The notes under the pieces are model-generated. The model was not told where the DNA came from. It was given only the letters and a program-made list of their open reading frames with translations, and made no database searches. The translations under genes and the position numbers were made by a program. A DNA stretch of 54,024 nucleotides, from NCBI GenBank assembly GCA_017521285.1, contig JAFXDG010000122.1, forward strand, positions 1 to 54,024, written 5' to 3'. This stretch comes from Bacteroidaceae bacterium (lineage in GTDB: Bacteria > Bacteroidota > Bacteroidia > Bacteroidales > Bacteroidaceae). Shown here piece after piece: positions 1-16,371 of this stretch; position 1 is the first letter of the stretch; each line of letters begins with the position of its first letter.

Positions 1-64
1 CCATTTGGGAGCTGCGAGGGTTCTGCAAGGGCTCGTTTTGACACCTCGCAAAACCGTACGAGAC

Positions 65-301
65 CTACGGAATCGACCCGAACAGCCCATAGCCCATTAT
101 CACCTGCATCACTTTCCCTTGCTTGGCGTGTCGGTTCTTGATGGTGTACAACAACCCCTTCAGCGGATAACTGCCGCCCATACCATTTATCAATTCCATC
201 GCACGCCAGAAGATACCGGTGCCAATGTATCCCATCTCACTCTCCATACGCATCATGCGCTCATCCGTTGCCATATTGGCATAATGTTTGAACCAGTTCA
301 T
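65..301 (-). pseudogene. N-terminal fragment of a DUF4373-type protein
   Basis: From the ATG at 299-301 the product begins MNWFKHYANMATDERMMRME and continues through GYIGTGIFWRAMELI to GYGLFGSIP, then stops at 65-67. This matches the N-terminal domain of DUF4373 (Lin1244/Lin1753-like) proteins, found in accessory and mobile loci of Bacteroidota. Family members are several times longer, so 78 residues is only the first domain. Sequence beyond the stop, toward position 1, reads on without obvious family similarity. It is therefore probably a truncated remnant. The family call is from recognition of the motif, not a search. Confidence 0.55.
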
Positions 302-521
302 AATTTCATTTACAATTTCTTTCTTTTTTTGACAAAAGAACAGAAGAACAAAAGAGCTTGTCCTTATGTGCTTATGTCTAATTTCATTACTTTTGCAGCA
401 TTGCATCTGCAAAGTTCGGAATAGTCTGGAGAATGGTGTTCCCAAAATCCCGCAGTTTTGGGAACACTGTTAAAAAGATTAACCTATATAACAGAATATT
501 AACTAAAAAACAGGTAGAAAA

Positions 522-662
522 ATGAAAGAAACGGTTTTTCAAAGTCCCCAATTGGGGAAAATCATTAGTGAAATTATCGAACGTGAACAATTGGTTCGTT
601 ATCTGCATGCAGACGCCCACATGGGACACACCACAATAGCCAAATTAAAAAGGGGGAATTGA
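522..662 (+). CDS. small hypothetical protein, 46 aa
   Basis: An ORF starting MKETVFQSPQLGKIISEIIE and ending IAKLKRGN. It is mostly helical by composition (IISEIIERE) with a basic C-terminus, and the C-terminal part (MGHTTIAKLKRG) resembles the recognition region of a helix-turn-helix. It lies divergent from the DUF4373 fragment with an A/T-rich gap between them, and the next small ORF begins 2 bp after its stop. No family was recognised. It may be a small gene of the same accessory locus. Coding status rests only on length, the tandem arrangement and sensible composition. Confidence 0.4.
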   Translation: MKETVFQSPQLGKIISEIIEREQLVRYLHADAHMGHTTIAKLKRGN

Positions 663-664
663 GT

Positions 665-784
665 ATGCACACAATGGTGCGTTTCCTGACCGCCTTGCGC
701 TTGCGCACCGACCAGGAAACGTTGGAAGAGTTTGTCATCCACGCTCTGCGCTGTCTGTTTGACAAGGAGGAGGTGCAGAATTAA
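665..784 (+). CDS. small hypothetical protein, 39 aa
   Basis: It begins MHTMVRFLTALRLRTDQETL and ends KEEVQN. The composition is charged and amphipathic, and the ORF starts 2 bp after the preceding small ORF, which suggests translational coupling. The segment LRTDQETLEEFVIHALR would form a good amphipathic helix. No family was recognised and no partner domain is visible. The pair could be leftovers of a regulatory gene set accompanying DUF4373 proteins. Confidence 0.35.
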   Translation: MHTMVRFLTALRLRTDQETLEEFVIHALRCLFDKEEVQN

Positions 785-962
785 AAGTTATACTTGGAAC
801 TATGGCTGTTGGCTATGGCGATGGCTGTTGGCGATAGCTGATAGCGATGCCCCCTTCAACGCATCAACGTCTCAACGCATCAACCTTTGACTTTTGACCT
901 TAGAACCCACTCTTCACTCGTAGCTGTTTGAACGCTTCAACGTATCAACGTGTCTACGTCTC
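785..962. repeat. short degenerate direct repeats between genes
   Basis: The gap contains runs such as CAACGCATCAACG repeated with variations (about 857-890 and 931-955), and GGCTGTTGGC/GATGGCTGTTGGCGAT near 800-830. Similar 'TCAACGCTTCAACG' text recurs at about 23487-23502 behind the Maf gene. No gene or clear hairpin was seen. This is low-complexity intergenic repeat material of the kind scattered through Bacteroidales genomes. Confidence 0.5.
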
Positions 963-3416: not shown

Positions 3417-3545
3417 AATTTTATTCCTTTTTATGGTTTGTTTTTAATTTGTCTTTTAATCCATGTATAGCGGGTATTTATCTCGCATTAGGGTGACGAG
3501 ATTATCTATCCCAAAAGAAATGAATAGTTAGTCTTGTAGAGCCAT

Positions 3546-5129
3546 TCACTCTCCCCTCTTGAAAGGGGGAAGTGGGAGAGTCCGCTTCTGCCATTTTCTC
3601 GCTTCAGTCTTTATTCTATTGATATTTTCCGAAGGTATTTTTACTGGTTTATCTATGATTTCCTGTGCCATAGAATCTGCTCTTACTGTATCACCTGCCT
3701 GTTGATAGAGTTTCAACAAACTGTGTAGCGGAACAAAGCGTACCGGGCACATGTTGGCAGCTAATTGGAAATGGTGTTCGGCCTCGTCGTAGCGGTTCAA
3801 TTCGTTGAGCAGTTCACCCTGCAGCAGTTCAAGGTCGTAGTCGGCCCAGTGGGTACGGCAACGTCGAGCAAAGTACAATGCCTCTTCGTGCCGGTCTGCC
3901 ATATACAGCTCGGCGGCATAGTTGTAGAGGAAATAGGGTTCGTTGCCCAATACGGGCATCAGTGCCTTGTAGCGCGGGAATGCCTCTTCGCTTCTTCCCG
4001 TCAGTGCCAGACGTGACACTTTCCCCCATTCCAATTCGGCACGGGTACGCTTCGCCACCCCATAAAGCAGGAGAGATGAAACACCGAACAGGACAATGCC
4101 CATTGTGTAGCGCACGGCCTTATGGGTGGGCAGGGTGATGGGGTAAGCCCCATGAAGCAGGATGTAACTGCCCCATACCAATACGACCCAAGTAAACGGA
4201 TAGGAGAACGGATAAGAGAAACACCCTAATACCCCGATTATAGCCAATGACATCAAGGCAAACCGTCCCTCTTCCGAAGGGGCTTTGCGGTAACTGTGTA
4301 TCATCAGCCATACATACAAGCCCAAGAACAACCATCCTACCATGCCGAAACATATCCCGATGGTCAGATACTCGTTGAAAACCGACTTTACATTGTCTGC
4401 CAACATGGAGAAATCGCTTTCGGGATGTACAGCTAACCATTCGGCTTGGTAGTCCATGTATTGGGCCTGTACTCCGCCCATGCCGTGACCGAACAAGGGT
4501 TTGTCCTTTACCATCTCCCACCCACAGCGGAGCATCAACAGCCGTCCGTCGGCAGAATCCTTCTTGGCCATATACATGATGGACATGAGCACTACACCTA
4601 TCCCTAACACCGCCAATTTTACCCAACGTTTCTTGATGAAGGTGAACATCCACCATGCCGCAGGGAGAAGTATTCCAGCAAGTATTCCTGTGCGGGATTC
4701 AGAAAGGAGCAATGCTGTGGCTATGAAAAGGGCCATCAGTACGCTTGCTCCTTTGAGAATCTTTCTCTCCCAAGTACGGAACAGATAGATGCAACACGGA
4801 ATCCCCACGCTGAGGCAGGCTGCTAATCCGGCAGGGTTGTCAAAACTTCCCACCACTCGATATGAAAAGTGGGAAGGACATAATCCTATTGCCTGTACAA
4901 TGGCATAGACGGCTTGGCAAAGGCAAAGGAATGCCACCGCCGTAAACGATGACAATCCTTTCATTCGCCTTTGCTTCCCTGACAGGATGAATAACCCTTC
5001 AATCATTCCCACCACTGCCACCATCCCCAATGTACAGAGCCATTTGGGCAGGATGTGTGTATCTGTCATCCCTGTGCAATAGGTGAAGATGGCGGCGATG
5101 GAGAGGAGGAAAAATAAGGCACTCATCAA
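3546..5129 (-). CDS. O-antigen ligase/Wzy-like membrane protein with TPR tail, 527 aa
   Basis: About ten hydrophobic spans fill residues 1-370, including the segment FDNPAGLAACLSVGIP and the large periplasmic loop before FNEYLTIGICFG typical of the Wzy_C/O-antigen ligase superfamily. Residues about 375-510 are soluble and repeat-like (TPR), with pairs such as DRHEEALYFARRC and NRYDEAEHHFQLA. Family members polymerise or ligate glycans at the periplasmic face. In Bacteroidota some sit in peptide/lipoprotein clusters with no glycan genes, as here, so the substrate is unknown. Its ATG overlaps the stop of the upstream lipoprotein gene by 4 bp (5126-5129), which indicates translational coupling. 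The C-terminal tail comes from a palindromic repeat. Confidence 0.8.
   Translation of the reverse strand: MMSALFFLLSIAAIFTYCTGMTDTHILPKWLCTLGMVAVVGMIEGLFILSGKQRRMKGLSSFTAVAFLCLCQAVYAIVQAIGLCPSHFSYRVVGSFDNPAGLAACLSVGIPCCIYLFRTWERKILKGASVLMALFIATALLLSESRTGILAGILLPAAWWMFTFIKKRWVKLAVLGIGVVLMSIMYMAKKDSADGRLLMLRCGWEMVKDKPLFGHGMGGVQAQYMDYQAEWLAVHPESDFSMLADNVKSVFNEYLTIGICFGMVGWLFLGLYVWLMIHSYRKAPSEEGRFALMSLAIIGVLGCFSYPFSYPFTWVVLVWGSYILLHGAYPITLPTHKAVRYTMGIVLFGVSSLLLYGVAKRTRAELEWGKVSRLALTGRSEEAFPRYKALMPVLGNEPYFLYNYAAELYMADRHEEALYFARRCRTHWADYDLELLQGELLNELNRYDEAEHHFQLAANMCPVRFVPLHSLLKLYQQAGDTVRADSMAQEIIDKPVKIPSENINRIKTEARKWQKRTLPLPPFKRGE
3549..3580 (-). terminator. palindromic repeat/hairpin at operon end
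   Basis: CTCTCCC (3549-3555) pairs with GGGAGAG (3574-3580), with a CCCC/GGGG inner stem. It starts immediately after the stop codon and extends into the last codons of the upstream gene, so the product ends in the repeat-derived tail PLPPFKRGE. It has no clear U-tract, so it may be a dispersed intergenic palindrome acting as a transcript end rather than a standard terminator. Confidence 0.45.
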
Positions 5130-5560
5130 TTATTCAATCTTTTGAGAAGTAAAGGTCGTTCTATATTCCAATAACGTTCTTTTGCAATCTTTATCAGACT
5201 GTCTTGATTCAACTGGTTAGCTGGATATTTTCCTTCTCCTAACCATTTCTTTACAACCAAGTTTGTCTCTTCCATTTGATACAAAATCACATCGTAATAA
5301 AGAGGGGGAATACCTCTTTTTTCAAACTCATCCTTCCCTACAGATAATTTCTGGCAATTGTCCTCTACGTACATCTTCTCATTGAGTACATCAAATAACT
5401 TTATCTTTAACTCAATTTGCTCCTTTGTCAATGTAGAATCAGGAATAGGCAAAATTGTTTGTTTCAGTAGCTTCTGATATTCATCTGAAGACAAAGATGT
5501 GTCAGATGGTTTTGTGCATCCAACGAAAGAAAGAAGTAAGAATAATAATGTATGTTTCAT
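5126..5560 (-). CDS. small hypothetical lipoprotein, 144 aa
   Basis: I chose the internal ATG at 5558-5560 because it gives a lipoprotein signal peptide, MKHTLLFLLLSFVGCTKPSD, with Cys at residue 15. An upstream start would add 37 residues lying inside the previous gene. The mature part is about 130 charged, helical residues ending KERYWNIERPLLLKRLNN. No family was recognised. It lies between a 236-residue lipoprotein gene (13-bp gap) and the O-antigen-ligase-like gene (4-bp overlap), so it is cotranscribed with them. Confidence 0.75.
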   Translation of the reverse strand: MKHTLLFLLLSFVGCTKPSDTSLSSDEYQKLLKQTILPIPDSTLTKEQIELKIKLFDVLNEKMYVEDNCQKLSVGKDEFEKRGIPPLYYDVILYQMEETNLVVKKWLGEGKYPANQLNQDSLIKIAKERYWNIERPLLLKRLNN

Positions 5561-5573
5561 TGCTTTCAAACAA

Positions 5574-6284
5574 TTAATTTGTACTTCCAACCCAAGCACA
5601 GGTTCCTCCATTACTATCACTTGTGGCATATTGTACTCCTCCGTTAACATTTGTAACAGAAAAACGTGCATTCATTGTTACATGCTGCCCTATTCCCGAT
5701 TTGATATCTTGTATGTCCCATGTTTCAGCAATGACTATTTGCATAGGCGATAGGGCAGCTTTTGAATAACAATCAAAATTAATCGATTTAATATATGATG
5801 GAACAAAAAAACCGTATTTGCCATATTCCTGTCCTGTTGTCGTAATTCTTCCACTGGGTATTTTCATGGCTTCATTACGCGTTTTTATACGAGAAATAGA
5901 ATATTTTGATACAGCTTCATTGTTATCATCATAGATGCATGTACTCACAACTACCTTTTTACCAGTATTTTTACAACTGTCAATGATTGCTGTCAATAAG
6001 CGATTGCCAACTGTTATTGAATTAAAAAGTTCATCGTAAGACTCTTCTGAGATACCACGTTCTACAGCTTCTTCCTTTGTAATGTTAATAACATATTGAT
6101 TGTTTATAAATTCAACGTAATGCCCCTCTATAAGAGGGTGTGTGTTTTCTTCACTATTATTTAAACTTCTAGTGTTATACCCACTATTGAATTCCGACTT
6201 AAATTCAAACGTGTCATCATATTCATTATTACATGATGAACAAATGATACATAAAGTGGCAAATAAAATTTGTTTAATTTTCAT
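5574..6284 (-). CDS. hypothetical lipoprotein, 236 aa
   Basis: The start MKIKQILFATLCIICSSCNN is a lipoprotein signal with the lipidated Cys at residue 18. The mature protein has a polar linker (SEENTHPLIEG), a helical region (TKEEAVERGISEESYDEL) and a C-terminal beta-rich part ending SDSNGGTCAWVGSTN. The region has lower GC than its neighbours. No known domain was recognised. It shares the element 'ERGI...Y' with the 144-aa lipoprotein downstream (KEEAVERGISEESYD here, KDEFEKRGIPPLYYD there), suggesting a shared short motif. It is probably secreted to the outer membrane as part of the transglutaminase operon. Confidence 0.75.
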   Translation of the reverse strand: MKIKQILFATLCIICSSCNNEYDDTFEFKSEFNSGYNTRSLNNSEENTHPLIEGHYVEFINNQYVINITKEEAVERGISEESYDELFNSITVGNRLLTAIIDSCKNTGKKVVVSTCIYDDNNEAVSKYSISRIKTRNEAMKIPSGRITTTGQEYGKYGFFVPSYIKSINFDCYSKAALSPMQIVIAETWDIQDIKSGIGQHVTMNARFSVTNVNGGVQYATSDSNGGTCAWVGSTN

Positions 6285-6340
6285 CGTTTTATAAATTTGT
6301 TGATTATTAATTTCTTACATTTATTTGGTCGTTGATATTC

Positions 6341-6397
6341 TTAATTTGCAGGTACAGCATCTAATGCCATCTTGAATGCCAACCATATTACATTCAT
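6341..6397 (-). CDS. possible 18-residue peptide ORF
   Basis: The ATG at 6395-6397 opens MNVIWLAFKMALDAVPAN, ending with TAA at 6341-6343. It lies in the 187-bp gap between the transglutaminase-like gene and the 236-aa lipoprotein gene, on the same strand, with AGG just before the ATG. The peptide is hydrophobic with one Lys and one Asp. It could be a peptide signal, a small modified product or a translational leader, or it could be chance. Only position and length support it. Confidence 0.25.
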   Translation of the reverse strand: MNVIWLAFKMALDAVPAN

Positions 6398-6471
6398 CCT
6401 GCGGGTGTGTTGTTCTTCTTTTCTCTCTTGATTTTTTTTGTTTTTTAATTATACGATGTATTTACCAATAT

Positions 6472-8451
6472 TTATTTATAGAATTGCTTTCCATCCTTGT
6501 ATTCAAAGATTCTTTCAGCGACTCCTCTTGTATGATTCCTGAGTAATAATAAGGCCTGTTTGGGAATACCCTGATAGACAATGGAGTCGGATGTCGATTT
6601 CTGTATTCCTTTTGAAATCCATTGTCCATTTTGGCATACAAGCAATTCATAAGTGTCCCCTTTGCGCACGAAGTTGTCGCGATTACGTGGTGTGTACATA
6701 ATCTTTCCTATACAAGTTGGTTTGTCAAGCTCAATGCCTGCCCATCCCCCATCGGGTTTGGGATGATTGTAGGACGTATCTGTCTTTTTATCGAAAACAT
6801 TGAAATAAGAATGTGAACCGTTTTTCCCTTCTTCAGGACCAATCACCTTTCCCCTGAGAGGAGTATTAATACTGTCTGTAGAATAGAAACCAACTTCTGA
6901 GACATCGCAATAACTTCCATCCTTTCCTTTATAACGGAGATATTTGTATTTCTTGGGATTGTTTATGTGTACCCTCGTACAAAGTCTTTCAGGGGCAACA
7001 GGAATCTGATGCAAAGTGTCTGCATCCTTAAAATCAGCACGATTGCTTCCTTCAAACACTCCGTCAGTCATTCTCCAGATGAAATACTCTGTCACCATAC
7101 TGAATTTGTTGAAAAGAGTTACGTCTTCAGTCTCTTCGCTTGGGGTGAAGAATGTTATCCGGCAACTGTCCTTCTCGAGCCAAAAGGGGTCGGAAAGCAT
7201 TGTGAAGTCTTCTTGTTCGGGGTGGTACCGGCCAATACAGTAGGTCACTTCACCATGACATTCTTCAAAGGTGATGGTATCTCCCTCAAATCGTGCAAAA
7301 TCAACAGGTTCCCAAAAGAAACGGTTGGACATGCAAAGATAGAGCAGTTCCTCTTCATTGACATCAATCCCGGCATCCAGCAACTGATTGCGTGATATTT
7401 TCAAATCCCAACATTTGTCTTTGGCATACACATGAGTCACATCCTTGAAACATGGATATTGGAAAGTATAATACAATTCTTTCGTAGGGGACGCCAGCTG
7501 TTTCATCATCTCTTTGTTGACACTGAATGTCTGCCGGTACATCTTGCCATAGAGGTCACGGATCAAGTTACAGTGAAAAATGCGCCCCATCCGGTAAAGG
7601 ATGGAGAAATAATAGCTACGCCCGTCAATATCTTCGATGAAGTTAATGTAATGAGCCGCATTGTTGTTGCCACGTACAGGAGTAAAATCAATGCCACATG
7701 GTATGCCCAAAGCCCGGCACACATACACCAACATATCAGACATATCCAAGCAGCTGCCTCCGCGAGTATCTACAATACTGGGCCCAATCCTTACTTCAGA
7801 AGCTATTTCCTCGGTGAAATATACCGGCTTTTTCAGAATGGAATCCATGAGGACTGTCAATACATACGTCGGACGTTGTTTATTGGAATCGTTAGGAAGT
7901 GCATCAATGATGGGTTGGAACTGGTTGTAGATTTTTTCCCGCCATGGTTTCAACTCTTCATTCCCAACTCGGTATGGAAGAACATATTCACAGAATTGTT
8001 CGAAAGTTACATTCTTGCCCCATGGCTGTTCTCGCCACACCTTGAAAGCCCAGTCTATGTTTTCAATCAGGTAATCGGGATTGATGTAGATGTCACTTTG
8101 AAAGTGTGGATTCTTCACACCACAGTATCCATAGCGTCGGACAACAGAGTCCAAAGACTGGAATTGGGTGTATTTCCCTGACCCGAACAATTGGTATGCC
8201 AATTTTTGAGGTTCCAAATCTGTGCAAACCGCTCCTTCGTGATAGGGCAAGTTATCAATCAAGAACTCTGCCGCACGCAGTTTCAGCGTATCATCTTTAC
8301 AATAATCTAAAACCCGCTGAAGTTCCGGGTTCATTTTTAAGATTTCATCGCGTGAAACAAAACTTTCACTATGCTCATGGCATCCTATTGTGAGAATGCA
8401 CAAACATGATACAAAAAGGTGTTTAATCGTCATTATTCTATAGTGCTTCAT
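6472..8451 (-). CDS. transglutaminase-like lipoprotein with C-terminal discoidin-like domain, 659 aa
   Basis: A lipoprotein signal (MTIKHLFVSCLCILTIGC, starting at residue 7) suggests the second ATG at 8431-8433 may be the real start; both are possible. A transglutaminase-core region covers about residues 210-300, with the Cys in TRGGSCLDMSDMLVYVCRAL and the His in NNAAHYINFIEDIDG arranged like the papain-type Cys-His pair. The C-terminal 130 residues (from about 525) are beta-rich, with WAGIELDKPTCIGKI, like F5/8 type C (discoidin) domains. It is the first gene of a leftward operon with two lipoproteins and an O-antigen-ligase-like protein. Its promoter carries two copies of the 16-bp palindrome shared with the LuxI/LuxR pair. 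Role: outer-membrane surface or periplasmic enzyme, substrate unknown. Confidence 0.8.
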   Translation of the reverse strand: MKHYRIMTIKHLFVSCLCILTIGCHEHSESFVSRDEILKMNPELQRVLDYCKDDTLKLRAAEFLIDNLPYHEGAVCTDLEPQKLAYQLFGSGKYTQFQSLDSVVRRYGYCGVKNPHFQSDIYINPDYLIENIDWAFKVWREQPWGKNVTFEQFCEYVLPYRVGNEELKPWREKIYNQFQPIIDALPNDSNKQRPTYVLTVLMDSILKKPVYFTEEIASEVRIGPSIVDTRGGSCLDMSDMLVYVCRALGIPCGIDFTPVRGNNNAAHYINFIEDIDGRSYYFSILYRMGRIFHCNLIRDLYGKMYRQTFSVNKEMMKQLASPTKELYYTFQYPCFKDVTHVYAKDKCWDLKISRNQLLDAGIDVNEEELLYLCMSNRFFWEPVDFARFEGDTITFEECHGEVTYCIGRYHPEQEDFTMLSDPFWLEKDSCRITFFTPSEETEDVTLFNKFSMVTEYFIWRMTDGVFEGSNRADFKDADTLHQIPVAPERLCTRVHINNPKKYKYLRYKGKDGSYCDVSEVGFYSTDSINTPLRGKVIGPEEGKNGSHSYFNVFDKKTDTSYNHPKPDGGWAGIELDKPTCIGKIMYTPRNRDNFVRKGDTYELLVCQNGQWISKGIQKSTSDSIVYQGIPKQALLLLRNHTRGVAERIFEYKDGKQFYK

Positions 8452-8486
8452 ATTTTTTAATTAATTGATTTGTTCGTTTCGCGCTG

Positions 8487-8571
8487 CAAAAGTACAAAGT
8501 ATATAAATACCCCCTTGTCACACAAAAGTGTGATTCTGCATTTCGGAATGAAAAATCACACAAAAGTGGAC
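8487..8571 (-). promoter_or_regulatory. promoter of transglutaminase operon with two 16-bp palindromes
   Basis: On the minus strand a -7 element TACTTTTG (8494 to 8487) fits TAnnTTTG. A perfect palindrome, TCACACAAAAGTGTGA, lies at 8518-8533, 23 bp upstream. A second copy, TCACACAAAAGTGGAC, lies at 8556-8571; centre-to-centre distance is 38 bp. No -33 TTTG is seen at normal distance, so activator dependence is likely. The inferred start site places the proximal palindrome near -42. Confidence 0.75.
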
Positions 8572-8590
8572 TATGTGAAAAAGTGTTTAA

Positions 8591-9217
8591 TTATGAGGCC
8601 GCTCGTAATCCTTTATACCTGTTATAGAATGGAATAAGCCCTTCGCGACTGGAGCAGACGGGGATGGTTTCGGAGGCCAAGTAGTTGAGCGATTCGCCCA
8701 ATTGGGTGGTCTGAATGCCGAGTGCATTCATCACTTTCAACAGTTTGCTGTCGGTTTCGGCAACCATGTAGCTTTGCTCTGTCTGGATGATGGGATGGAT
8801 GGCATAGACCATCAGTTGCTTGAAAAGGGTAAGGGTGGAGATTCCCGCAAAGGAGTCGATAGCAAAACGACCAATGTGCCAATAACTGTACTCTTCACCT
8901 GCATGGATAGAAGTGAGCGGATTGATACCAAAAAGTTTTTGGATAGGTAGAATCTGATGACGGTCCCACTTGAAGATGCGGATACTGCCGATGATGTGCC
9001 CTTGCAAATTTCGCACAAGAAAGGCAACGGAGGTGTCGGCATAAAGCAACTCTTCCTGATAAACAAGGGCAATCTCTCTCTGAATCTCTTCGTCAGTATA
9101 ATGACCGACGTGGTGTTTGTAGTTCTCGCGGACAACGAACTCGGCAAGTTCGAAGAGGTTTTCCGTACTGATTTGCCAAATGGTGTAGCTCTCTGTCTGT
9201 GCAATGAATTTTTCCAT
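8591..9217 (-). CDS. LuxI-like/GNAT-fold N-acyltransferase, 208 aa
   Basis: The length and order of motifs suit the LuxI/FeeM-type acyltransferase superfamily. There is an N-terminal helical region rich in charged residues (DEEIQREIALVYQEE, 42-56), then VAFLVRN and HIIGSIRIF (74-82) like the GNAT strand carrying the LuxI Arg, then YWHIGRFAID (112-121), which aligns with the LuxI signature W-E-x-S-R-F-x-V. Arg117 is kept; the usual Glu is His here. A C-terminal acyl-pocket-like region follows (SYMVAETDSKLLKVMNALGI). Predicted activity: transfer of an acyl group to an amino-acid-like acceptor. Alternatives are a FeeM N-acyl amino acid synthase or an ordinary GNAT. It is divergent from a LuxR-type regulator, and its promoter carries the shared palindrome. 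Confidence 0.65.
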   Translation of the reverse strand: MEKFIAQTESYTIWQISTENLFELAEFVVRENYKHHVGHYTDEEIQREIALVYQEELLYADTSVAFLVRNLQGHIIGSIRIFKWDRHQILPIQKLFGINPLTSIHAGEEYSYWHIGRFAIDSFAGISTLTLFKQLMVYAIHPIIQTEQSYMVAETDSKLLKVMNALGIQTTQLGESLNYLASETIPVCSSREGLIPFYNRYKGLRAAS

Positions 9218-9250
9218 AACTTTACTCTGTTTTGTTTAATGTTCTGAGAG

Positions 9251-9296
9251 CAAAGTTATTTGTTGAAAATGAGGATGGTCAGACACAAAAGTGTGA
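9251..9296 (-). promoter_or_regulatory. promoter of the acyltransferase gene with proximal palindrome
   Basis: On the minus strand TAACTTTG (9258 to 9251) matches TAnnTTTG. The palindrome AGACACAAAAGTGTGA (9281-9296) lies 22 bp upstream of it, the same geometry as at the transglutaminase and ThiF promoters. The -7 element is 33 bp from the start codon. A -33 TTTG at usual spacing is missing. Confidence 0.7.
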
Positions 9297-9319
9297 TAGT
9301 GAAAATGATGGGTGTAAGT

Positions 9320-9335
9320 TCACACTTTTGTGTCT
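9320..9335 (+). promoter_or_regulatory. central 16-bp palindrome in divergent intergenic region
   Basis: TCACACTTTTGTGTCT differs from the perfect palindrome only at its right end. Its centre is 39 bp from the acyltransferase-side copy and 43 bp from the regulator-side copy. Its TTTT spacer has the rightward polarity, so it may act as the distal site of the regulator promoter and also serve the leftward one. Confidence 0.7.
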
Positions 9336-9362
9336 TAAAATTATGTAAAAATCAGGATGCCG

Positions 9363-9415
9363 TCACACTTTTGTGTGACATTATATGTCTATTTGGAATA
9401 AAATTGCTACATTTG
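9363..9415 (+). promoter_or_regulatory. promoter of the LuxR-type gene with perfect palindrome
   Basis: TCACACTTTTGTGTGA at 9363-9378 is a perfect inverted repeat around TTTT. TACATTTG at 9408-9415 fits the -7 consensus and lies 29 bp downstream, 6-7 bp more than at the leftward promoters. This implies transcription starts near 9420, after the first in-frame ATG at 9385, and so favours the ATG at 9463. The regulator probably controls its own gene. Confidence 0.65.
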
Positions 9416-9462
9416 CGGAATCAAAACAAATTGCTATTATTGTACCTATCAACTCTATTATT

Positions 9463-10221
9463 ATGACAGCCAGCAAAGAAGATTTTTTCATTCCCGCCAA
9501 CTCGGTGTACAACATAAGCGACGAAGAGTATGAACGCATGGAGTTGCTGCTGAATGCAACCCGGGCGTTTGCACGCGCCACGCACCAATGCGTGTATGTC
9601 ATCGACTATTTCCGCAAGGGATTCCTGTATGTGTCGGACGACATAGAGGTGCTGTGCGGCGAACCGGTGGAGAAGGTGCAGGAGTTCGGATATGACCTCT
9701 ACATGAAGCATGTGCCCGAAGAGGAGGTGCAGATGTTGCTGGAAATAAACCGCGAGGGATTCAAGATGGCCAATGCCATTGAGCCGGAAGAACGGAAAGA
9801 ATATACCATATCGTATGACTTCCACCTGATAAACGGCAAGAAGAAACAGCTGATAAACCACACGCTGACCCCCATACTGATGACACGCGACGGGCGCATC
9901 TGGCTGGCGCTGTGCACCATCGCCCCATCTACCAAGAGTGAGCCGGGAAACGTGGTGCTGAAGAAACAGGGGGAAAATTGGTATTATGCGTATTCACTGA
10001 CGAAACACCAATGGGAGACAAAGGAGGCTGTGGCACTGACGGAAACTGAAAGGGACATTCTACGCCTCTCCTCGCAAGGCTATACCATGGAGGACATTGC
10101 AGCCCAACTGTGCCGTTCGGTTGACACCATCAAGACGTACAAGAAGCGCCTGTTTGCCAAACTGGAGGTGCGGAGCATTGCCGAAGCACTGTCGTATGCG
10201 ACGAATTACAAGTTGATTTAG
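9463..10221 (+). CDS. PAS-domain LuxR/FixJ-type transcriptional regulator, 252 aa
   Basis: The C-terminal 61 residues are a clear LuxR/GerE helix-turn-helix: LTETERDILRLSSQGYTMED, then IAAQLCRSVDTIKTYKKRLF. The preceding region (about 30-170) has PAS character, with QCVYVIDYFRKGFLYVSDDI and a KKQLINHTLTPILM strand pair, so it probably binds a small molecule or partner. It is not a response regulator because no receiver domain is present. I chose the ATG at 9463 because the likely promoter lies after the longer start at 9385. It is divergent from the LuxI-like gene, and palindromes between them suggest autoregulation. It is convergent with the ThiF-like gene. Confidence 0.85.
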   Translation: MTASKEDFFIPANSVYNISDEEYERMELLLNATRAFARATHQCVYVIDYFRKGFLYVSDDIEVLCGEPVEKVQEFGYDLYMKHVPEEEVQMLLEINREGFKMANAIEPEERKEYTISYDFHLINGKKKQLINHTLTPILMTRDGRIWLALCTIAPSTKSEPGNVVLKKQGENWYYAYSLTKHQWETKEAVALTETERDILRLSSQGYTMEDIAAQLCRSVDTIKTYKKRLFAKLEVRSIAEALSYATNYKLI

Positions 10222-10241
10222 AAGGTTTAAGGCCTAAATTT

Positions 10242-10331
10242 AGAACACGGAGACACGAAGACACAGAGTTTTTTATCTTGTTTGATTGTTAATAACATAT
10301 ATTCCTCTGTGACTCTGTGTCTCTGTGTTCT
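10242..10331. terminator. large imperfect hairpin between convergent genes
   Basis: Left arm 10242-10268 (AGAACACGGAGACACGAAG...) pairs with right arm 10305-10331 (...GACTCTGTGTCTCTGTGTTCT) over about 27 bp with few mismatches, around an A/T-rich loop with a T-run. It sits between the stop codons of the LuxR-type and ThiF-like genes, as expected for a bidirectional terminator. Its repetitive 'ACACAGAG' text also resembles dispersed intergenic palindromes. Confidence 0.65.
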
Positions 10332-10336
10332 ACTTT

Positions 10337-11119
10337 TTATTTCACATATCCATTGTAATTCTCATCCTCGCTCATGATGGAGGAGAAATAGAACTTGGGG
10401 AAATACTTGACATCGCGCCCGGTGACGATGTTGAACATGGCATTGACGCAGAATCCGGCCGCTATCCACGAACCGATGGAGAGTTGGGGAGGAGGTGCGG
10501 AGAGGCCTTCTTTCTTATATGTGACCAATACGTTGTCGAGCCAACGGTTGGGCATGTTCCAAAAATGGCCGAAGCGGGAAACATATTGCGCCATTTCGTA
10601 TTCAAAATTCTTGTAATTGGGATTGAGTTCTGTCAAAGGATAGCCCGTAGGCTTGACAATGGTGAGGAAACCTGCCCATCCGAAATTGTAGGGATGGAGG
10701 ACGGGAATCTTCTGTTCCTGACATATCTGGTCGAACACAAAGGGAATGTCGCTCTTGAAGTCGAGTGCATTGATGGCAATGTTGTGCCCTTCAATCAGTT
10801 CGCGCACATTGTCGTGGGTGATGAAGGTGTTGTGGAAACGGATGTCGGCCTGAGGGTTGATACCCAGCAACCGTTTGGCCAACCGTTCGGCCTTGTACTT
10901 CTTCAGATCGGCCTTGGTGTAGTTCTGACGGTTGAGGTTGCTCAGCTCCACCTTGTCGCCATCGACAATGGTGATGCTCTCAAACCCGAAACGGAGTGCA
11001 CACTCGGCAATGATGCTGCCAATGCCTGCGCCACCCAACAGGATGCGCACTCCTTTGATTTTTTCCTGCTCTTCCTCGGTGAGGTAGATGCGGTTGCGGC
11101 TGTACCTTTCTTCCATCAT
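10337..11119 (-). CDS. ThiF/MoeB/HesA-family adenylyltransferase (E1-like), 260 aa
   Basis: E1-like enzymes adenylate a C-terminal carboxylate, for example of ubiquitin-like sulfur carriers or peptides. The ATP-binding Rossmann motif GGAGIGS is at residues 29-35 and the signature DGDKVELSNLNRQ at 53-65, followed by KAERLAKRLLGINP and INALDFKSD. The CxxC zinc pairs of MoeB/ThiF are not apparent, and no ThiS, MoaD or ubiquitin-like partner lies nearby, so ordinary thiamin or molybdopterin synthesis is unlikely. A C-terminal extension (from about 185) contains PPPQLSIGSWIAAGFCVNAM. Two copies of the 16-bp palindrome lie at its promoter with the same geometry as the acyltransferase gene, placing it in the same regulon. 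Confidence 0.85.
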   Translation of the reverse strand: MMEERYSRNRIYLTEEEQEKIKGVRILLGGAGIGSIIAECALRFGFESITIVDGDKVELSNLNRQNYTKADLKKYKAERLAKRLLGINPQADIRFHNTFITHDNVRELIEGHNIAINALDFKSDIPFVFDQICQEQKIPVLHPYNFGWAGFLTIVKPTGYPLTELNPNYKNFEYEMAQYVSRFGHFWNMPNRWLDNVLVTYKKEGLSAPPPQLSIGSWIAAGFCVNAMFNIVTGRDVKYFPKFYFSSIMSEDENYNGYVK

Positions 11120-11145
11120 AATTGTTATGAATTGATTCGACGGTG

Positions 11146-11230
11146 CAAAGGTACAGTTTTTACCAATACGCGTGTGTCACCCAAAAGTGTGAAAATGACT
11201 TTTGAGATGCAAAATCACCCAAAAGTGTGA
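11146..11230 (-). promoter_or_regulatory. promoter of ThiF-like gene with two palindromes
   Basis: On the minus strand TACCTTTG (11153 to 11146) is the -7 element. TCACCCAAAAGTGTGA occurs twice, at 11177-11192 and 11215-11230, with centres 38 bp apart. The proximal copy is 23 bp from the -7 element. Both copies carry the same C in place of A in the left half-site. The start codon is 26 bp after the -7 element. Confidence 0.75.
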
Positions 11231-11773
11231 AAAGGATGTTGGAGCGAAAATATCCCCCCGCATCTGCGAATGCCGGTAACTACTTTAATCTGATGATTAT
11301 GCTTGTGAGCTATCAACCTATCAAGATATTTCTGACGTGAGAACAACATAAACTTTATTTTTTTGCCCTTAAGGGCGATTATCTAAAGTAAAACAGTGGC
11401 AAAGATAATGCAATTCAACTAAAAGCCCTCAACTGTCTTCATCTTTTTTGCGATAACCTTCAACTTTTGTTTCTTCTTTCGTCTTTTATCAGCATGTCAA
11501 AGGACGCTTTGCACCTGAAAAGAGCGATGCCGAGTGGTCAGGATTATCTACATGCGAAACTTAAAGACATATAAAAATCGCACGATGCAACATTTGGACC
11601 ATAAGATTTTTAGAAAAGGTTGTAAAATGGGGCATTGCGTGAAGCCTGTGAAGGGTGTGAAAGGTACTTTCCTTCACAATAAGCGGATGATGGTCAGTTT
11701 GTTATCCCGCGGTGAAAGGGTGAATGATGGTTTAAGGTGTATGTTTTAGGGTGTAGGGAGACTATTAACTCCG

Positions 11774-11890
11774 TTGGCGAACGGTGTTTGCTTGGTTGGC
11801 GAACGGAGTTAACTCGGTTCGGACGAATACTATATAGTATAAGGTGGTAACGAATATTGTATAAGGACGCAACGAGTATAGTATAAGGTA
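11774..11890. repeat. degenerate tandem array, 22-bp period
   Basis: Five units begin at 11774, 11796, 11818, 11840 and 11862. The first two share TTGGCGAACGG and the last two share TAAGG...AACGA.TAT.GTA; the middle unit is intermediate. The first part also contains an inverted repeat, TTAACTCCGTT (11765-11775) with AACGGAGTTAA (11802-11812). No coding potential was seen. Confidence 0.7.
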
Positions 11891-11900
11891 TAGACTATGG

Positions 11901-12040
11901 CTTTGAACTTGGAACCTTGAACTTTGAACCTTGACTATGGAAGTCAACGTATGGACTATGAAAGTCAGCGGATGGAGTATGAAGATACGGATGTCAAACA
12001 CGAAAGAACCGCATCTTCCGCGCCTGACGTCCGTATCTTC
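11901..12040. repeat. second tandem array, 21-bp period, with terminal inverted repeat
   Basis: Units starting at 11901, 11922, 11943 and 11964 change gradually from CTTTGAAC-type to GTCAACG.ATGGA.TATGAA-type text. An inverted repeat follows: GAAGATACGGATGTCA (11981-11996) pairs with TGACGTCCGTATCTTC (12025-12040) with one mismatch. It is A/T-poor relative to a terminator and has no T-run. Confidence 0.65.
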
Positions 12041-12249
12041 CGTACTTACTGCTCCCTCCTGCTCAGAATGTTTGCAGTTCCATCCTTTTGATTTCGTCGA
12101 TAAAAATGGCTGATTCGTCGATTATCACGGCGTTTTCTGAAATGAGACTTAAACTTTTCATTTGATGTCAAGTCATAGGATTGTGTGTTGAAAATAGAAA
12201 AAATTAGTATAACATATATAATTAAAAGGTATTAAACCGACGATTAAAA

Positions 12250-15195
12250 ATGAAAAGACTACTGTCATTAATTATTGTGTGTGTGTGTGCATCGGCTGTA
12301 GCGATGGCACAGAAGAAAGACATCGTGGTGAGCGGACAGGTGCAGGACAAGAAGAGTGCCGAGCCGGTGATGCAGGCTACCGTGCAGTTGTTAACCGTGA
12401 AGGACAGCTCCTTTGTGGCTGGTAATGTCACCGACTTGGAAGGAAAGTTCGCATTGCCGGGTGTGGCTGAAGGAAACTATCTGTTGAAGGTTTCCTACAC
12501 GGGTTATACTCCCCAATGGAAAAGCTTGAGCTTGAAGAAGTCGGCCGACGTGGGTATTATTCCTCTCGATCAGGATGCCGTGTTGCTGAAGCAGGCTACC
12601 GTTACGGCTGAGTTGGCCGAAGTGCAGGTGGTGGAAGACACTGTGATGTACAATGCCGGAGCCTACCGTGTACCGCCCGGTTCGATGTTGGAGGAACTGG
12701 TGAAGAAATTGCCTGGTGCCCAAGTTGATGAAAACGGAAAAATCACCATCAATGGCAAGGAGGTGAAGAAGTTCAAGATGAATGGTAAGGACTTCTTCAG
12801 TGGTGACACCGAGACGGCCATGAAGAATGTGTCCGTGGAGATGGTGGATCGGTTGAAGGTGTATGACCAGCAGAGCGACTTGGCCCGTGTGACCGGTATT
12901 GACGACGGCAACGAAGAGACCGTGATTGATATGCAGGTAAAACCTGGTATGGCCAAAGGATGGTTCGGTAATACCGACTTGGGCTATGGAACCGAAGAGC
13001 GCTATGCAGGACATGCCATGTTGAACCGCTTTGACGATGCACAGCAGATGTCATTGTTTGGCAATGCCGGCAACGTGGGTGGCCGTGGCTTCCCCGGTGG
13101 TGGAGGTGGCTTCATGGGCGGCATGGGCGGTGGTGGCCTGCGCTCCAATAAGGATGCCGGCTTCAATTTCGCTTTCGAGAAGGGTAACGTCGAGTTTGGT
13201 GGAGACATCCGTTATCGTCACAATGACTCGGACAGCAAGACCAAGAGTGCAAGCGAAACCTTCCTTCAGACAGGAAGCTCATTCTCCAATAGCCGCAACT
13301 CCAGCTTGGGTTGCAACGATGGTTGGGACATCAACTTCCGTTTGGAATGGGATATTGACACACTGACAAACCTTATCTTCCGTCCCCGTTTCTCGGTCAG
13401 CAAGTCCAACAACAGTTCGGATAACATATCGGCTACTTTCAATCAGGACCCCTATGACTTTACTGATGATCCGCTGGCCAACATCGATGCCGATGATATA
13501 TGGAAAGGTGAAGAGGTGCGTGTGAACGCTAACCGCAGCAAGTCAGAAAGCAACAGCGAAAGTCTGAGCGCCAGCGGTACTTTGCAGTTGAACCGCCGCC
13601 TCAATGACGAAGGCCGTAACATCACTTTCGTAGGTAGCTACAGCTATGGTGACAGCGAGAGCGAATCGGTTTCTGCATCTGAAGTCAAGTACTTCTTGGA
13701 TGCCAACCGGAATGAAGACATCCGTAACCGTTACAATGTGACTCCGGGTAAGAACTGGAACTACAGCGCCCAGTTGACCTATAGCGAACCAATCATGTAT
13801 CAGACCTATCTGCAGTTCAGCTACAAGTTCACTGAAAGCTACAACAAGAACGACCGTTCGACTTACGACTTCAGCGATGCCTATCCCGATTATATGACCA
13901 GTTCATTGCTCGGATTCCCCATGTTGCCTGAAGACTATAAGGACTATCTGGACAAGGCACAGAGCCAGTTCTCGGAATACTACAACTATACTCACGAGGC
14001 ACAGGCCATGTTGCGCATCAATCGCGATAATTATCAGTTCAATGTAGGTTTCACCGTATTGCCTCAGAAGACAGAGATGGAGTACAAATACCTGAAGATT
14101 GACACGACAGTGACGCGTAATGTGGTGAACTTCACTCCGAACGTACGCTTCCGCTACCGTTGGGACAGACAGACCCAGTTGGATGTGAACTATCGTGGCC
14201 GTAGCAGCCAGCCCAGCATGACCGACATGTTGGACTTCGAGGACGACACCAATCCGCTGAACATCACTCAGGGTAATCCGGGCTTGAAGCCTTCGTTTAG
14301 CCACAACTTGAGTGCAAACTTCCGTACCTTCAACATGGAGAGCCAGCGAAGCATCTTCGGTATGTTGGGTGGACAATTCACTCAGAACAGTGTGAGCAGC
14401 AAGGTGATTTATAACACCGAGACTGGTGGACGCATCACTCGCCCTGAAAACATCAACGGAAACTGGAGTGCCAATGGTATGTTCGGATTCAACACCGCAC
14501 TGCCCAACAAGAAGTTCACTGTCAGCAGCAATACCGATGCACGATACAACAACAGTGTACAGTTCTTCGCACAAAATGGATTGGAGAGCCAGAAGAGTAC
14601 AACCCGTTCTATCAATGTAGGCGAGAGACTGCGCGGTACTTATCGCAACGATTGGGAAAGCGGATGGGGACTGGAAGTGTCGCTCACAGGAAACCTCAAC
14701 TACCAGCACGCCGAGAACGAGATGCAGCCCGACCGTAATCTGGATACGTACATGTTCTCATACGGTGGCAGCACCAACGTCAACTTCCCCTGGAACATGA
14801 CTCTTTCTACAGACATGAGCATGAACAGCCGTCGTGGATACAGCGACCCGAACATGAATACCAATGAACTCATCTGGAATGCTCAGATTGCACAGACCTT
14901 GTTCAACGGATCGGCTACCCTCTCATTGCAATTCTACGACATCCTGCAGGAGCAGAGCAACATCAGCCGTACCATCAATGCAACAATGCGTAGCGATAGC
15001 GAAAGCAATGCCATCAACAGCTACTGTATGGTACACTTCATCTATCGTCTGAACATCTTCGGTGACGGACAGAATGCTTTCCGTGGTGGCATGCGTGGTG
15101 GCATGGGCGGTGGTATGATGATGGGTGGCCCTGGCATGATGATGGGCGGTGGAATGGGTGGCGGTCGCGGTATGGGCGGAGGCCGTCCCTTCTAA
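12250..15195 (+). CDS. outer-membrane beta-barrel receptor-like protein with Met/Gly-rich tail, 981 aa
   Basis: A signal peptide (MKRLLSLIIVCVCASAVAMA, cleavage near residue 20) is followed by a carboxypeptidase-regulatory-like beta-sandwich (28-110, with GNVTDLEGKFALPGVAEGNY), a plug-like region (about 115-230, with LEELVKKLPGAQVDENGKIT) and a large barrel of the OMP_b-brl_3/TonB-dependent-receptor type. An internal Gly-rich loop lies near residues 277-300 (GGRGFPGGGGG). The C-terminus has a run of Gly, Met and Arg repeats (about 945-981) ending in Phe, an unusual replacement for a plain final strand. No SusD-like partner or TonB box was identified. It is likely an outer-membrane transporter or receptor; the substrate cannot be read from the sequence. 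Confidence 0.85.
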   Translation: MKRLLSLIIVCVCASAVAMAQKKDIVVSGQVQDKKSAEPVMQATVQLLTVKDSSFVAGNVTDLEGKFALPGVAEGNYLLKVSYTGYTPQWKSLSLKKSADVGIIPLDQDAVLLKQATVTAELAEVQVVEDTVMYNAGAYRVPPGSMLEELVKKLPGAQVDENGKITINGKEVKKFKMNGKDFFSGDTETAMKNVSVEMVDRLKVYDQQSDLARVTGIDDGNEETVIDMQVKPGMAKGWFGNTDLGYGTEERYAGHAMLNRFDDAQQMSLFGNAGNVGGRGFPGGGGGFMGGMGGGGLRSNKDAGFNFAFEKGNVEFGGDIRYRHNDSDSKTKSASETFLQTGSSFSNSRNSSLGCNDGWDINFRLEWDIDTLTNLIFRPRFSVSKSNNSSDNISATFNQDPYDFTDDPLANIDADDIWKGEEVRVNANRSKSESNSESLSASGTLQLNRRLNDEGRNITFVGSYSYGDSESESVSASEVKYFLDANRNEDIRNRYNVTPGKNWNYSAQLTYSEPIMYQTYLQFSYKFTESYNKNDRSTYDFSDAYPDYMTSSLLGFPMLPEDYKDYLDKAQSQFSEYYNYTHEAQAMLRINRDNYQFNVGFTVLPQKTEMEYKYLKIDTTVTRNVVNFTPNVRFRYRWDRQTQLDVNYRGRSSQPSMTDMLDFEDDTNPLNITQGNPGLKPSFSHNLSANFRTFNMESQRSIFGMLGGQFTQNSVSSKVIYNTETGGRITRPENINGNWSANGMFGFNTALPNKKFTVSSNTDARYNNSVQFFAQNGLESQKSTTRSINVGERLRGTYRNDWESGWGLEVSLTGNLNYQHAENEMQPDRNLDTYMFSYGGSTNVNFPWNMTLSTDMSMNSRRGYSDPNMNTNELIWNAQIAQTLFNGSATLSLQFYDILQEQSNISRTINATMRSDSESNAINSYCMVHFIYRLNIFGDGQNAFRGGMRGGMGGGMMMGGPGMMMGGGMGGGRGMGGGRPF

Positions 15196-15245
15196 GAAAC
15201 GCCGGAATAATATATGTGTGTGAAAAAGGATTATTGTTAGATGTG

Positions 15246-15285
15246 AAAAGAGACTTGTACCACCTTGAGTACAAGTCTCTTTTTT
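15246..15285. terminator. bidirectional rho-independent terminator
   Basis: AAAAGAGACTTGTAC (15246-15260) and GTACAAGTCTCTTTTT form a 12-bp perfect stem with an 8-nt loop, flanked by A- and T-runs on the two sides. It lies between the convergent barrel gene and the DUF4831 gene. Confidence 0.9.
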
Positions 15286-15309
15286 ATTGTTACCCAGTAG
15301 TAGGGTGAT

Positions 15310-16371
15310 TTATGGCCGAGTGATGTGGCGGATAGCGCCTGTGGCAGGGTCGAACGTGATGCGCGTAGCCTTCTGCTGTTGGAACAGTGAGGTGGAGAGA
15401 ACATCGACGTGGCCGTATTGGGCAACGGGAATCTCGTCGTCGAAAACAGTGGATTGGGCTGTAGAGATGCGCAGTGTGGCTTTACCTGGAACACAATAGA
15501 CGATACCCGAGGGGCGTTTGGCTTTGCTGGCTTTCTTCTCGTCGGGTTGGGGCAAGATGGTATGGTTCTCCATGCGGTAGTAGTAGGGAGTTCCGCTGAG
15601 ATCGTCGGCAGAGACTACGCCGAGTTTTCGTGAGAAACGGAAGAGTACACCTTCGCCAATGCCGGTTTTGCTGGGTTCGAGTTGGACAACGGTCTCGTGT
15701 ACAGTGCGCTTTGTGGTTCCTTTGAACATGGCTACGAGGGCATCTTCCTGTTCTTGCAGGTTGCGGAGAATGATGCGCAAGGCTTCACCGTCTTTGGGCA
15801 CATTGTCTGCCTGACCACGCAAGATGGCGTTGCGACTTTCACGGATAGTGTATATCTCTTTGGCTACCAGTTCGGCCATTTTGGCTGTAGAGGTAGTCGT
15901 CAGAATCTCTTCATTGAGAAAATCCTTTGGGTTGGCAGCAGCTACAGGTGTTTCAACCGGTTCTGCCAGTTGGGGGGCTTCGTCTGTGGGGACTTTGTTG
16001 ATGGATAACAGTACGCCTTCATCATTCAATTCCATGAGAGAAGCCAGGCTCTTGTCGCGCATCTTGACGGTGAATCCCCGCTCAGGGTCGCGTACACCGA
16101 CGGGAGTGACTGTGAGAGCTGTGACCTGCCACGATGTGGAGGGTGTTTGGGATACTCCCGACAGACGCAGATATTTGTTGGCATATTGGCTGAACTCGCC
16201 GGGAGTATAGACTTCCTGCACGGTTTCGACAGTAACTTCGACGATGGTGCGGGGCAGGAAATAGGTGACACCTTCAGCATTGACGCCAGGTGTATAGTCT
16301 GTCACTTCGGATTGGGCGATGGCGCACATGCTGGCTGCCATCAGACTACAGAATAAGATTCCTTTCTTCAT
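15310..16371 (-). CDS. DUF4831 family secreted protein, 353 aa
   Basis: It has a signal peptide (MKKGILFCSLMAASMCAIAQ) and a mature region starting SEVTDYTPGVNAEGVTYFLPRT, characteristic of DUF4831 proteins of Bacteroidales. A proline/alanine-rich linker lies near residues 130-150 (EAPQLAEPVETPVAAA), followed by a helical segment (AKMAELVAKEIYTIRESRNA) and a C-terminal beta-rich domain. Function is unknown and it is probably periplasmic. It starts 50 bp behind the NAD(P)H-hydrate repair gene on the same strand, so the two are probably cotranscribed. Confidence 0.85.
   Translation of the reverse strand: MKKGILFCSLMAASMCAIAQSEVTDYTPGVNAEGVTYFLPRTIVEVTVETVQEVYTPGEFSQYANKYLRLSGVSQTPSTSWQVTALTVTPVGVRDPERGFTVKMRDKSLASLMELNDEGVLLSINKVPTDEAPQLAEPVETPVAAANPKDFLNEEILTTTSTAKMAELVAKEIYTIRESRNAILRGQADNVPKDGEALRIILRNLQEQEDALVAMFKGTTKRTVHETVVQLEPSKTGIGEGVLFRFSRKLGVVSADDLSGTPYYYRMENHTILPQPDEKKASKAKRPSGIVYCVPGKATLRISTAQSTVFDDEIPVAQYGHVDVLSTSLFQQQKATRITFDPATGAIRHITRP

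Follow-up and report, generated by a model that had tools for sequence, protein, structure and literature searches.

A conserved acyltransferase, PAS-LuxR and ThiF-like gene module of the Bacteroidota as a candidate acyl-signal circuit

The stretch of DNA analysed here (the window) is one whole contig of 54,024 nucleotides (G000:C14) from a Bacteroidaceae genome of 3.38 Mb, assembled in 141 contigs with a completeness of 86%. It carries a module of three conserved genes, which encode an acyltransferase, a LuxR-type regulator with a PAS-like domain (PAS-LuxR) and a ThiF-like adenylating enzyme, and whose promoters bear a shared palindromic box. On balance we favour the reading that the locus is a self-regulating acyl-signal circuit that would work like LuxI/LuxR with different parts. 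What is observed is the gene set, its conservation, the predicted folds, the geometry of the operators and the occurrence of solo receptors. A preliminary description, made from the sequence alone, had proposed a LuxI/LuxR-like pair of acyltransferase and regulator; the module is larger than this pair, and the ThiF gene, which lies inside the stretch then described and has boxes of its own, was absent from that account. The three genes are as follows.

8591..9217, minus strand: N-acyltransferase with a predicted FeeM/LuxI-like fold, 208 amino acids (aa; P0001); conserved N..HH, [W/F]H[I/V]GR and AE.D
9463..10221, plus strand (open reading frame, ORF, open from 9385): PAS-GerE (LuxR-type) regulator, 252 aa from the likely true start; assigned from its GerE match, homologue starts and structural model
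10337..11119, minus strand: ThiF/E1-like adenylating enzyme, 260 aa (P0003), a predicted ATP-dependent cyclase; PF00899 at 119.7 bits against a cut-off of 28.1

Conservation and linkage of the module

The 208-aa acyltransferase with IGSIR followed by WHIGRFAID (YWHIGRFAID with the preceding residue), on the minus strand at 8591-9217, and the divergent regulator, with its GerE match in the plus-strand ORF 9385-10221, were both found where the preliminary description had placed them. The regulator probably starts at ATG 9463 and not at ATG 9385, because its homologues begin at about this point and because a -7 element (9408-9415) lies downstream of ATG 9385.

The proposed pairing of these two genes recurs widely among relatives. 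A scan of the contigs of named genomes with the acyltransferase as a single protein gave no match; a profile scan then gave 106 relatives, and the best 80 of these are the loci to which all counts out of 80 refer. Eleven of them lie on contigs examined earlier (L174, L177, L183, L197, L201, L213, L219, L221, L222, L238 and L241), and the other 69 were also counted separately. A LuxR gene was present in 77 of the 80 loci, divergent from the acyltransferase in 76; of the three loci lacking it, two are cut by the contig start and the third is L248. ThiF was present in 68 loci, tail to tail with LuxR in 59, and several of the 12 loci without it have short flanks. Excluding the loci examined earlier, the counts were 66/69 for LuxR and 57/69 for ThiF.

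Genome samples at three ranks, each including the source genome, showed the acyltransferase to be sporadic: it was found in 7 of 201 family, 5 of 393 order and 12 of 394 phylum-sample genomes. The ThiF subfamily (E<=1e-40) was found in eight of the 201 family genomes, including all seven with the acyltransferase (3e-12 if independent); the eighth, G071, carries LuxR and a ThiF gene that reads in two pieces, with no acyltransferase in the stretch read. Distance matrices were correlated for acyltransferase and ThiF (r 0.93, 15 loci), for acyltransferase and LuxR (0.83, 15 loci) and for LuxR and ThiF (0.84, 17 loci), correlations that could come from shared descent alone.

These results bear on the suggestion, allowed for in the preliminary description, that the enzyme is an ordinary housekeeping acetyltransferase beside unrelated neighbours. 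The linkage to LuxR already contradicts this, as do the shared operators described below, the co-occurrence with ThiF and the sporadic distribution within the family; linkage and predicted structure together rule it out, and we give it next to no credence.

Candidate operators and promoter geometry

The intergenic space had been said to hold lux-box-like palindromes, and it does. They have the form ACACTTTTGTGT and occur in pairs about 38 bp apart. A box is here a 12-bp palindrome, with up to two mismatches allowed in strict offset counts, and the offset is the distance in bp, towards the gene, from the box start to the -7 element TAnnTTTG, which is the Bacteroidota consensus for that element. 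Box search and -7 spacing gave the following features in the window (boxes carry no strand).

9283..9294: box proximal to the acyltransferase promoter, offset 36
9251..9258, minus strand: -7 element of the acyltransferase promoter (TAACTTTG)
9322..9333: box in the middle of the region between the divergent genes
9365..9376: box proximal to the regulator promoter, offset 43
9408..9415, plus strand: -7 element of the regulator promoter (TACATTTG)
8520..8531: box proximal to the promoter of a predicted target gene (659 aa), offset 37
8558..8569: second, distal box of that promoter, a further 38 bp upstream
8487..8494, minus strand: -7 element of the target-gene promoter (TACTTTTG)
11179..11190: box proximal to the ThiF promoter, offset 37
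11217..11228: second, distal ThiF box, a further 38 bp upstream
11146..11153, minus strand: -7 element of the ThiF promoter (TACCTTTG)

With up to two mismatches, TCACACTTTTGTGT was found six times in the window against 0.58 expected, a number reached by none of 100 shuffles; with up to one mismatch there were nine matches in the genome, six of them at the module locus, and none for a reversed control. Across 11 genomes the 14-mer YACACTTTTGTGTR gave 31 matches compared to one control match. The position of the boxes is the stronger result. In the window and the loci outside the named set, which together hold 132 boxes, a spacing of exactly 36 bp between box start and -7 element was found 28 times, the expectation per offset being 0.15; in the named loci the same offset was seen in 123 cases against 0.57 expected (419 boxes, 61/80 loci), and in the 69 loci not examined earlier in 101 cases against 0.49 expected (51/69 loci), these excess figures not being probabilities because related loci are not independent. 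Furthermore, 85 box pairs in the 80 loci are spaced by 38 or 39 bp.

Offset-36 elements were found before acyltransferase, ThiF and target genes alike. Of the 77 loci with a regulator, 60 have a GTGT half-site at offset 36 upstream of the acyltransferase, compared to at most two at each of 17 other offsets, and 42 have a strict box there. Where the regulator's own promoter has a -7 element, the offset differs: it is 43 or 44 in most loci and 53 or 55, around one helical turn more, in two. A half-degenerate box followed by 24 or 25 bases and a -7 element gave 25 matches against two control matches in 16 genomes, four of which had none. Judged by their position, the palindromes behave as operators. 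If the -7 element starts near -12, the offset would place the operator at about -42, the kind of position from which LuxR-type activators work.

Elsewhere in the source genome, an M56/BlaR1-like gene (C61) and a GLPGLI-like/outer-membrane pair (C44), names given by eye, lie behind boxes whose -7 elements are at 37 and 39; Pfam gave no match for the 857-aa C44 protein. In G069, the genes behind two boxed promoters (L123:4281 and L124:11633) begin very similarly, the one in L123 encoding 949 aa, and these are likely to be an extended regulon. Sites in G000:C71, G069:C32:38866 and G524:C36 were dropped as chance matches, since they overlap coding ORFs and have no -7 element at offset 36. The letters flanking three box pairs (window 8520-8569, window 11179-11228 and L093:3563-3612) are similar by eye, as if a paired operator had been copied between promoters as a unit.

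The enzyme pair, the putative receptor and the possible product

The predicted structure of the acyltransferase (predicted local distance difference test, pLDDT, 92.8) has FeeM and then LasI as its closest folds, with LasI at rank 1 in Foldseek, so that the model resembles both the FeeM fold and that of N-acyl homoserine lactone (AHL) synthases. The LuxI profile PF00765 gave no match to P0001 at E<=1 and a single match among 17 family members (E=0.01); it was also silent over the source genome, which does not show that LuxI is absent, because the same search was silent in all 14 control genomes. LuxI has a signature Glu, before a conserved [IL]xR, where the acyltransferase has His. This substitution, pointed out in the preliminary description, is general: 79 of the 80 homologues read [WFY]H[ILV]GR and the eightieth, a split copy, reads WHIRRF. 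Profile and motif together rule out membership of LuxI. The LuxI/LuxR-like proposal is supported in part. A true AHL synthase that has drifted past profile recognition would account for the Foldseek rank, the LuxI-like order of motifs and the linkage to a LuxR-type regulator; against it stand the missing profile match, the His, the ThiF partner in all seven family genomes with the enzyme and the PAS-like domain of the receptor, and we hold it to be very improbable. A FeeM-type enzyme had been named as another alternative. FeeM is indeed the closest fold, and 13 of the 17 family members match the FeeM profile PF21926 at E<=0.1 (best 5.2e-6), but P0001 itself scores 18.3 bits, below the curated cut-off of 27, and its genomic partners differ from those of FeeM.

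The conserved residues of the ThiF-like enzyme (N63, R64, Q65, K76 and D120) are consistent with an adenylating site, by analogy with MoeB. CxxC zinc motifs typify the ThiF/MoeB enzymes that activate sulfur carriers; none of 19 members of this subfamily has one, which argues against such a role, and among the window ORFs of 50-129 aa with a start between 3000 and 16500 none has a terminal GG. On these two grounds sulfur-carrier activation was ruled out. The Rv1355c family model scores 57 bits, against a cut-off of 476. The ThiF-type proteins of PDB entries 9egb, 9egc and 9egd belong to the same subfamily as the window enzyme (profile E ~1e-125 over the full length); the deposits, which bear a generic name only and for which no paper naming them was found in the open-access literature searched, show that someone has already worked on it.

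The regulator has a GerE domain (48 bits, cut-off 23.5), as do all 21 family members, and across these 21 no autoinducer-binding domain was matched in Pfam at E<=0.1; the modelled N-terminal half aligns with PAS proteins. Its predicted structure (pLDDT 92.3) aligns over around 175 residues with VqmA, the quorum-sensing receptor of Vibrio for 3,5-dimethylpyrazin-2-ol (DPO), with which it appears to share the PAS-then-GerE architecture and a similar fold, although the root mean square deviation (rmsd) over the whole chain is large, at 12-14 Å. VqmA is not known to be served by an acyltransferase-ThiF pair.

Compared to LuxI/LuxR, the module is alike in its acyl-signal synthase fold, adjacent GerE regulator, palindromic box near the -35/-33 element, boxed synthase promoter and receptor solos; it is unlike in having no LuxI profile match, His for Glu, a ThiF partner and apparently a PAS-like rather than an autoinducer-binding domain. 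The enzyme pair has closer parallels in OxzAB of Pseudoalteromonas rubra and in TyzACB and TrzAS of actinobacteria, in which ring closure of an N-acyl amino acid with ATP gives an oxazolone (PMC12856293 and PMC10404671). These pathways and, by prediction, the module combine a FeeM/AHL-synthase-fold enzyme that makes N-acyl amino acids with a ThiF-like cyclase dependent on ATP; FeeM and BjaI are named among the folds closest to TyzA (PMC10404671), a likeness seen for P0001 too. An N-acyltransferase linked to a ThiF-like gene, the mark of acyl-oxazolone pathways, is what was found in the 68 named loci and in the seven family genomes counted above. The module alone has a linked PAS-LuxR regulator with operators. 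In the three pathways, as the same papers describe them, a flavin oxidase is linked or fused, whereas no linked one (PF00881) was found in ten module genomes; in nine of them the matches lie on other contigs or at least 26 kb away, and in the window a 176-aa nitroreductase-family (PF00881) ORF lies at 21061-21492, separated from the ThiF gene by around 9.9 kb and several other genes.

Since acyltransferase and ThiF are the enzyme pair of acyl-oxazolone synthesis, an oxazolone formed by ring closure of an N-acyl amino acid is the likeliest product. The FeeM/LuxI-fold enzyme would join an acyl group to an amino acid, and the ThiF-like enzyme would adenylate the carboxylate and cyclise the product to an oxazolone, which would be AHL-like. 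With no flavin oxidase found in linkage to the module, the ring may keep its saturated form; an unlinked enzyme could still desaturate it, because all ten genomes searched hold PF00881 genes somewhere. The PAS-GerE regulator would then bind the oxazolone or its acyl-amino-acid precursor and activate the acyltransferase, ThiF, target and its own promoters through a box centred around 30 bp upstream of the -7 element, where a -33 element would lie, giving positive feedback of an acyl-oxazolone or acyl amino acid signal. The targets would be envelope or secreted functions and, in many relatives, RiPP (ribosomally synthesised and post-translationally modified peptide) genes with their export. The reaction, the product, the binding of ligand and of DNA, activation as opposed to repression, and movement of a signal between cells are what we infer in this scheme.

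Predicted target genes, peptide clusters and solo regulators

The gene with its own box pair next to the acyltransferase, and those downstream of it, are as follows.

6472..8451, minus strand: 659-aa protein, predicted target; its transglutaminase-core and F5/8C matches do not reach the cut-off, and by eye its N-terminus is lipoprotein-like
3546..6284, minus strand: genes downstream of the target; two of the products look secreted by eye (236 and 181 aa), and the other is a Wzy_C (O-antigen ligase-like) protein of 527 aa

Relatives of the 659-aa protein adjoin the module in L170 (Mediterranea) and, at 25% identity, in L056; in L170 a similar gene set follows the target, by eye. By eye, two secreted-looking proteins encoded in window 5126-6284 and in L170:14405-15585 have a common motif like ...GIxxxxYDxL..., and in both genomes NGG[TV]CAW.GS.N forms the C-terminus of the 236-aa one.

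The surroundings of other loci are different. With a limited set of single-sequence phmmer queries, which may catch relatives with another function, RiPP or C39-export markers were found in the DNA retrieved for 51 of the 80 loci and not for 29, L170 included. They comprise a C39-like exporter in 36, an NHLP or class I lanthipeptide leader in 30 and a LanB-, radical-SAM- or TIGR04157-like maturase in 18; the C39-like motif count of 36 is used in place of 49/80 because the latter also catches ordinary ABC exporters. Above NCBIfam cut-offs are lant_leader_L1a and thiopep_ocin in L045 and leader_NHLP and NHLM_micro_ABC1 in L047; below them are a PapB-like radical SAM protein in L020 and a TIGR04157-like glycosyltransferase in L022. 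The interval between LuxR and ThiF holds RiPP genes in L046, L047 and, by eye, in L052/L096. In Bacteroides fragilis Q1F2 (L172) the acyltransferase is followed by two small ORFs with GG-leader-like sequences (by eye), a radical SAM gene, an outer-membrane-like protein and a C39-like exporter (by eye).

This raises the main alternative, in which the acyltransferase would attach a lipid to a secreted peptide that the ThiF-like enzyme adenylates or cyclises, while PAS-LuxR only switches the cluster in response to another cue. GNAT enzymes lipidate NHLP-type peptides (the selidamides), and with markers in 51 loci the enzyme pair could tailor peptides; in L045 and L047 leaders of the NHLP and class I lanthipeptide types and a protein of LanB type score above the NCBIfam cut-offs, and the position of RiPP genes inside the module in the loci given above points the same way. 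ThiF-like enzymes are known to act in RiPP pathways elsewhere (PMC12250964). The peptide classes vary from locus to locus, however, while the triad is constant, and therefore a signal is favoured over a tailoring role. Furthermore, the neighbourhood in the window has no RiPP or export genes, holding the 659-aa gene and its neighbours instead as in Mediterranea L170, and none of four small GG-containing ORFs in window 1-16000 is precursor-like. The enzyme pair also stands without the regulator, in a distant form (27% and 41% identical) at L053:9450-10926, and so can stand alone; an ORF upstream of this pair looks Crp/Fnr-like by eye. Peptide tailoring is thus unlikely in our judgement, at around one chance in a few.

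Regulators without a synthase also speak for a signal. At E<=1e-25 the regulator family is present in 30 of the 201 family genomes, compared to seven for the synthase. Twelve further regulator loci and L087 were surveyed, and nine of these are solos that score highly (at least 356 bits: L087 and L158-L165). Eight of the nine are in genomes without the acyltransferase, and eight, all but L165, have a box with at most one mismatch. L158-L161 and L163 each have an outer-membrane-like gene (773-970 aa) behind a box whose -7 element is at 34-36, and in both of those scanned PF14905 was confirmed. A more distant clade (L167-L169) has another box in two members, L167 having no exact one. The box of this clade, GTATACTTAAGTATAC, has its -7 element at 37 in L168, at 36 in L169 and none in L024, these offsets running from the start of the 16-mer and hence being about 2 bp off the usual centre. 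In G002 a pair of ACCCAATTGGGT boxes 38 bp apart has offsets of 36 and 74. That regulator clades vary in the letters of the box while the geometry tends to stay supports, without proving, that this regulator binds the box. In G002, which is one of the seven family genomes counted for the acyltransferase, that gene is broken (L025 ~8845-9042) although LuxR and ThiF read through.

The solos also bear on a further alternative, that the product is an acyl amino acid or oxazolone lipid of membrane, surfactant or antimicrobial use, that the regulator senses the state of the envelope or redox, and that no signalling between cells takes place. PAS domains sense many cues, and some predicted targets are outer-membrane proteins. 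The discussion of PMC12856293 gives oxazolones no settled role and considers that they may be linked to stress. An autoregulated synthase promoter with a fixed operator position, together with solos that have the same operator in genomes without the synthase, fits a shared signal better, and this alternative appears improbable.

Several results weigh against a signalling circuit and have to be set beside those above. No -7 element lies at offset 36 of a strict box (up to two mismatches) in 19 of the 80 loci. L087 is a second regulator in a producer genome, G038, and the solos could answer to an unrelated ligand. To these are added the sub-threshold FeeM score, the large deviation from VqmA, the missing linked flavin oxidase, the LuxR-free pair at L053 and the peptide evidence, namely the marker count, the potential of the two enzymes for tailoring and the known ThiF-like RiPP enzymes.

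The named carriers include Bacteroides fragilis, Mediterranea, Prevotella, Segatella, Parabacteroides, Flavobacterium, Tenacibaculum, Chryseobacterium, Kordia and Hymenobacter, among others. Prevotella jejuni (L021 and L222) has a second copy of the module with a split acyltransferase, between whose parts lie outer-membrane protein, ThiF and LuxR genes; the larger part reads WHIRRF, and an intact copy is on another contig. In Parabacteroides distasonis (L192) the module is flanked by genes that by eye are conjugative-transfer- and ParA-like, which suggests carriage on an integrative element; no relative was confirmed in the viral contigs or plasmids searched. Matches in metagenome-assembled genomes named Eubacteriales and Zambryskibacteria (L196 and L218), on contigs of 4.7 and 6.5 kb, are probably mis-binned Bacteroidota.

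No paper on this module was found in the open-access literature searched, which lacks most subscription journals. In its widest form, which we put forward tentatively and at somewhat less than even chances, the proposal is of a new class of quorum sensing across the Bacteroidota: an acyl amino acid oxazolone signal made by a FeeM/LuxI-fold acyltransferase and a ThiF cyclase, a PAS-GerE receptor and a precisely placed lux-box-like operator, which would control peptide-bacteriocin clusters and outer-membrane proteins, with solos in non-producers listening in. Acyl oxazolones resemble AHLs, and their role is called a major unresolved question in the discussion of PMC12856293; the module, if the proposal is true, would provide the first clear one. 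Acyl signals have been reported in the human gut, while a search of metagenomes detected Bacteroides LuxR genes and no AHL synthase (PMC9738069), and the circuit would be one explanation for acyl signals and LuxR genes in guts without LuxI. With its synthase pair, receptor and operator the module would tie these two questions together, and the 12-bp box with its promoter rule predicts targets across genomes.

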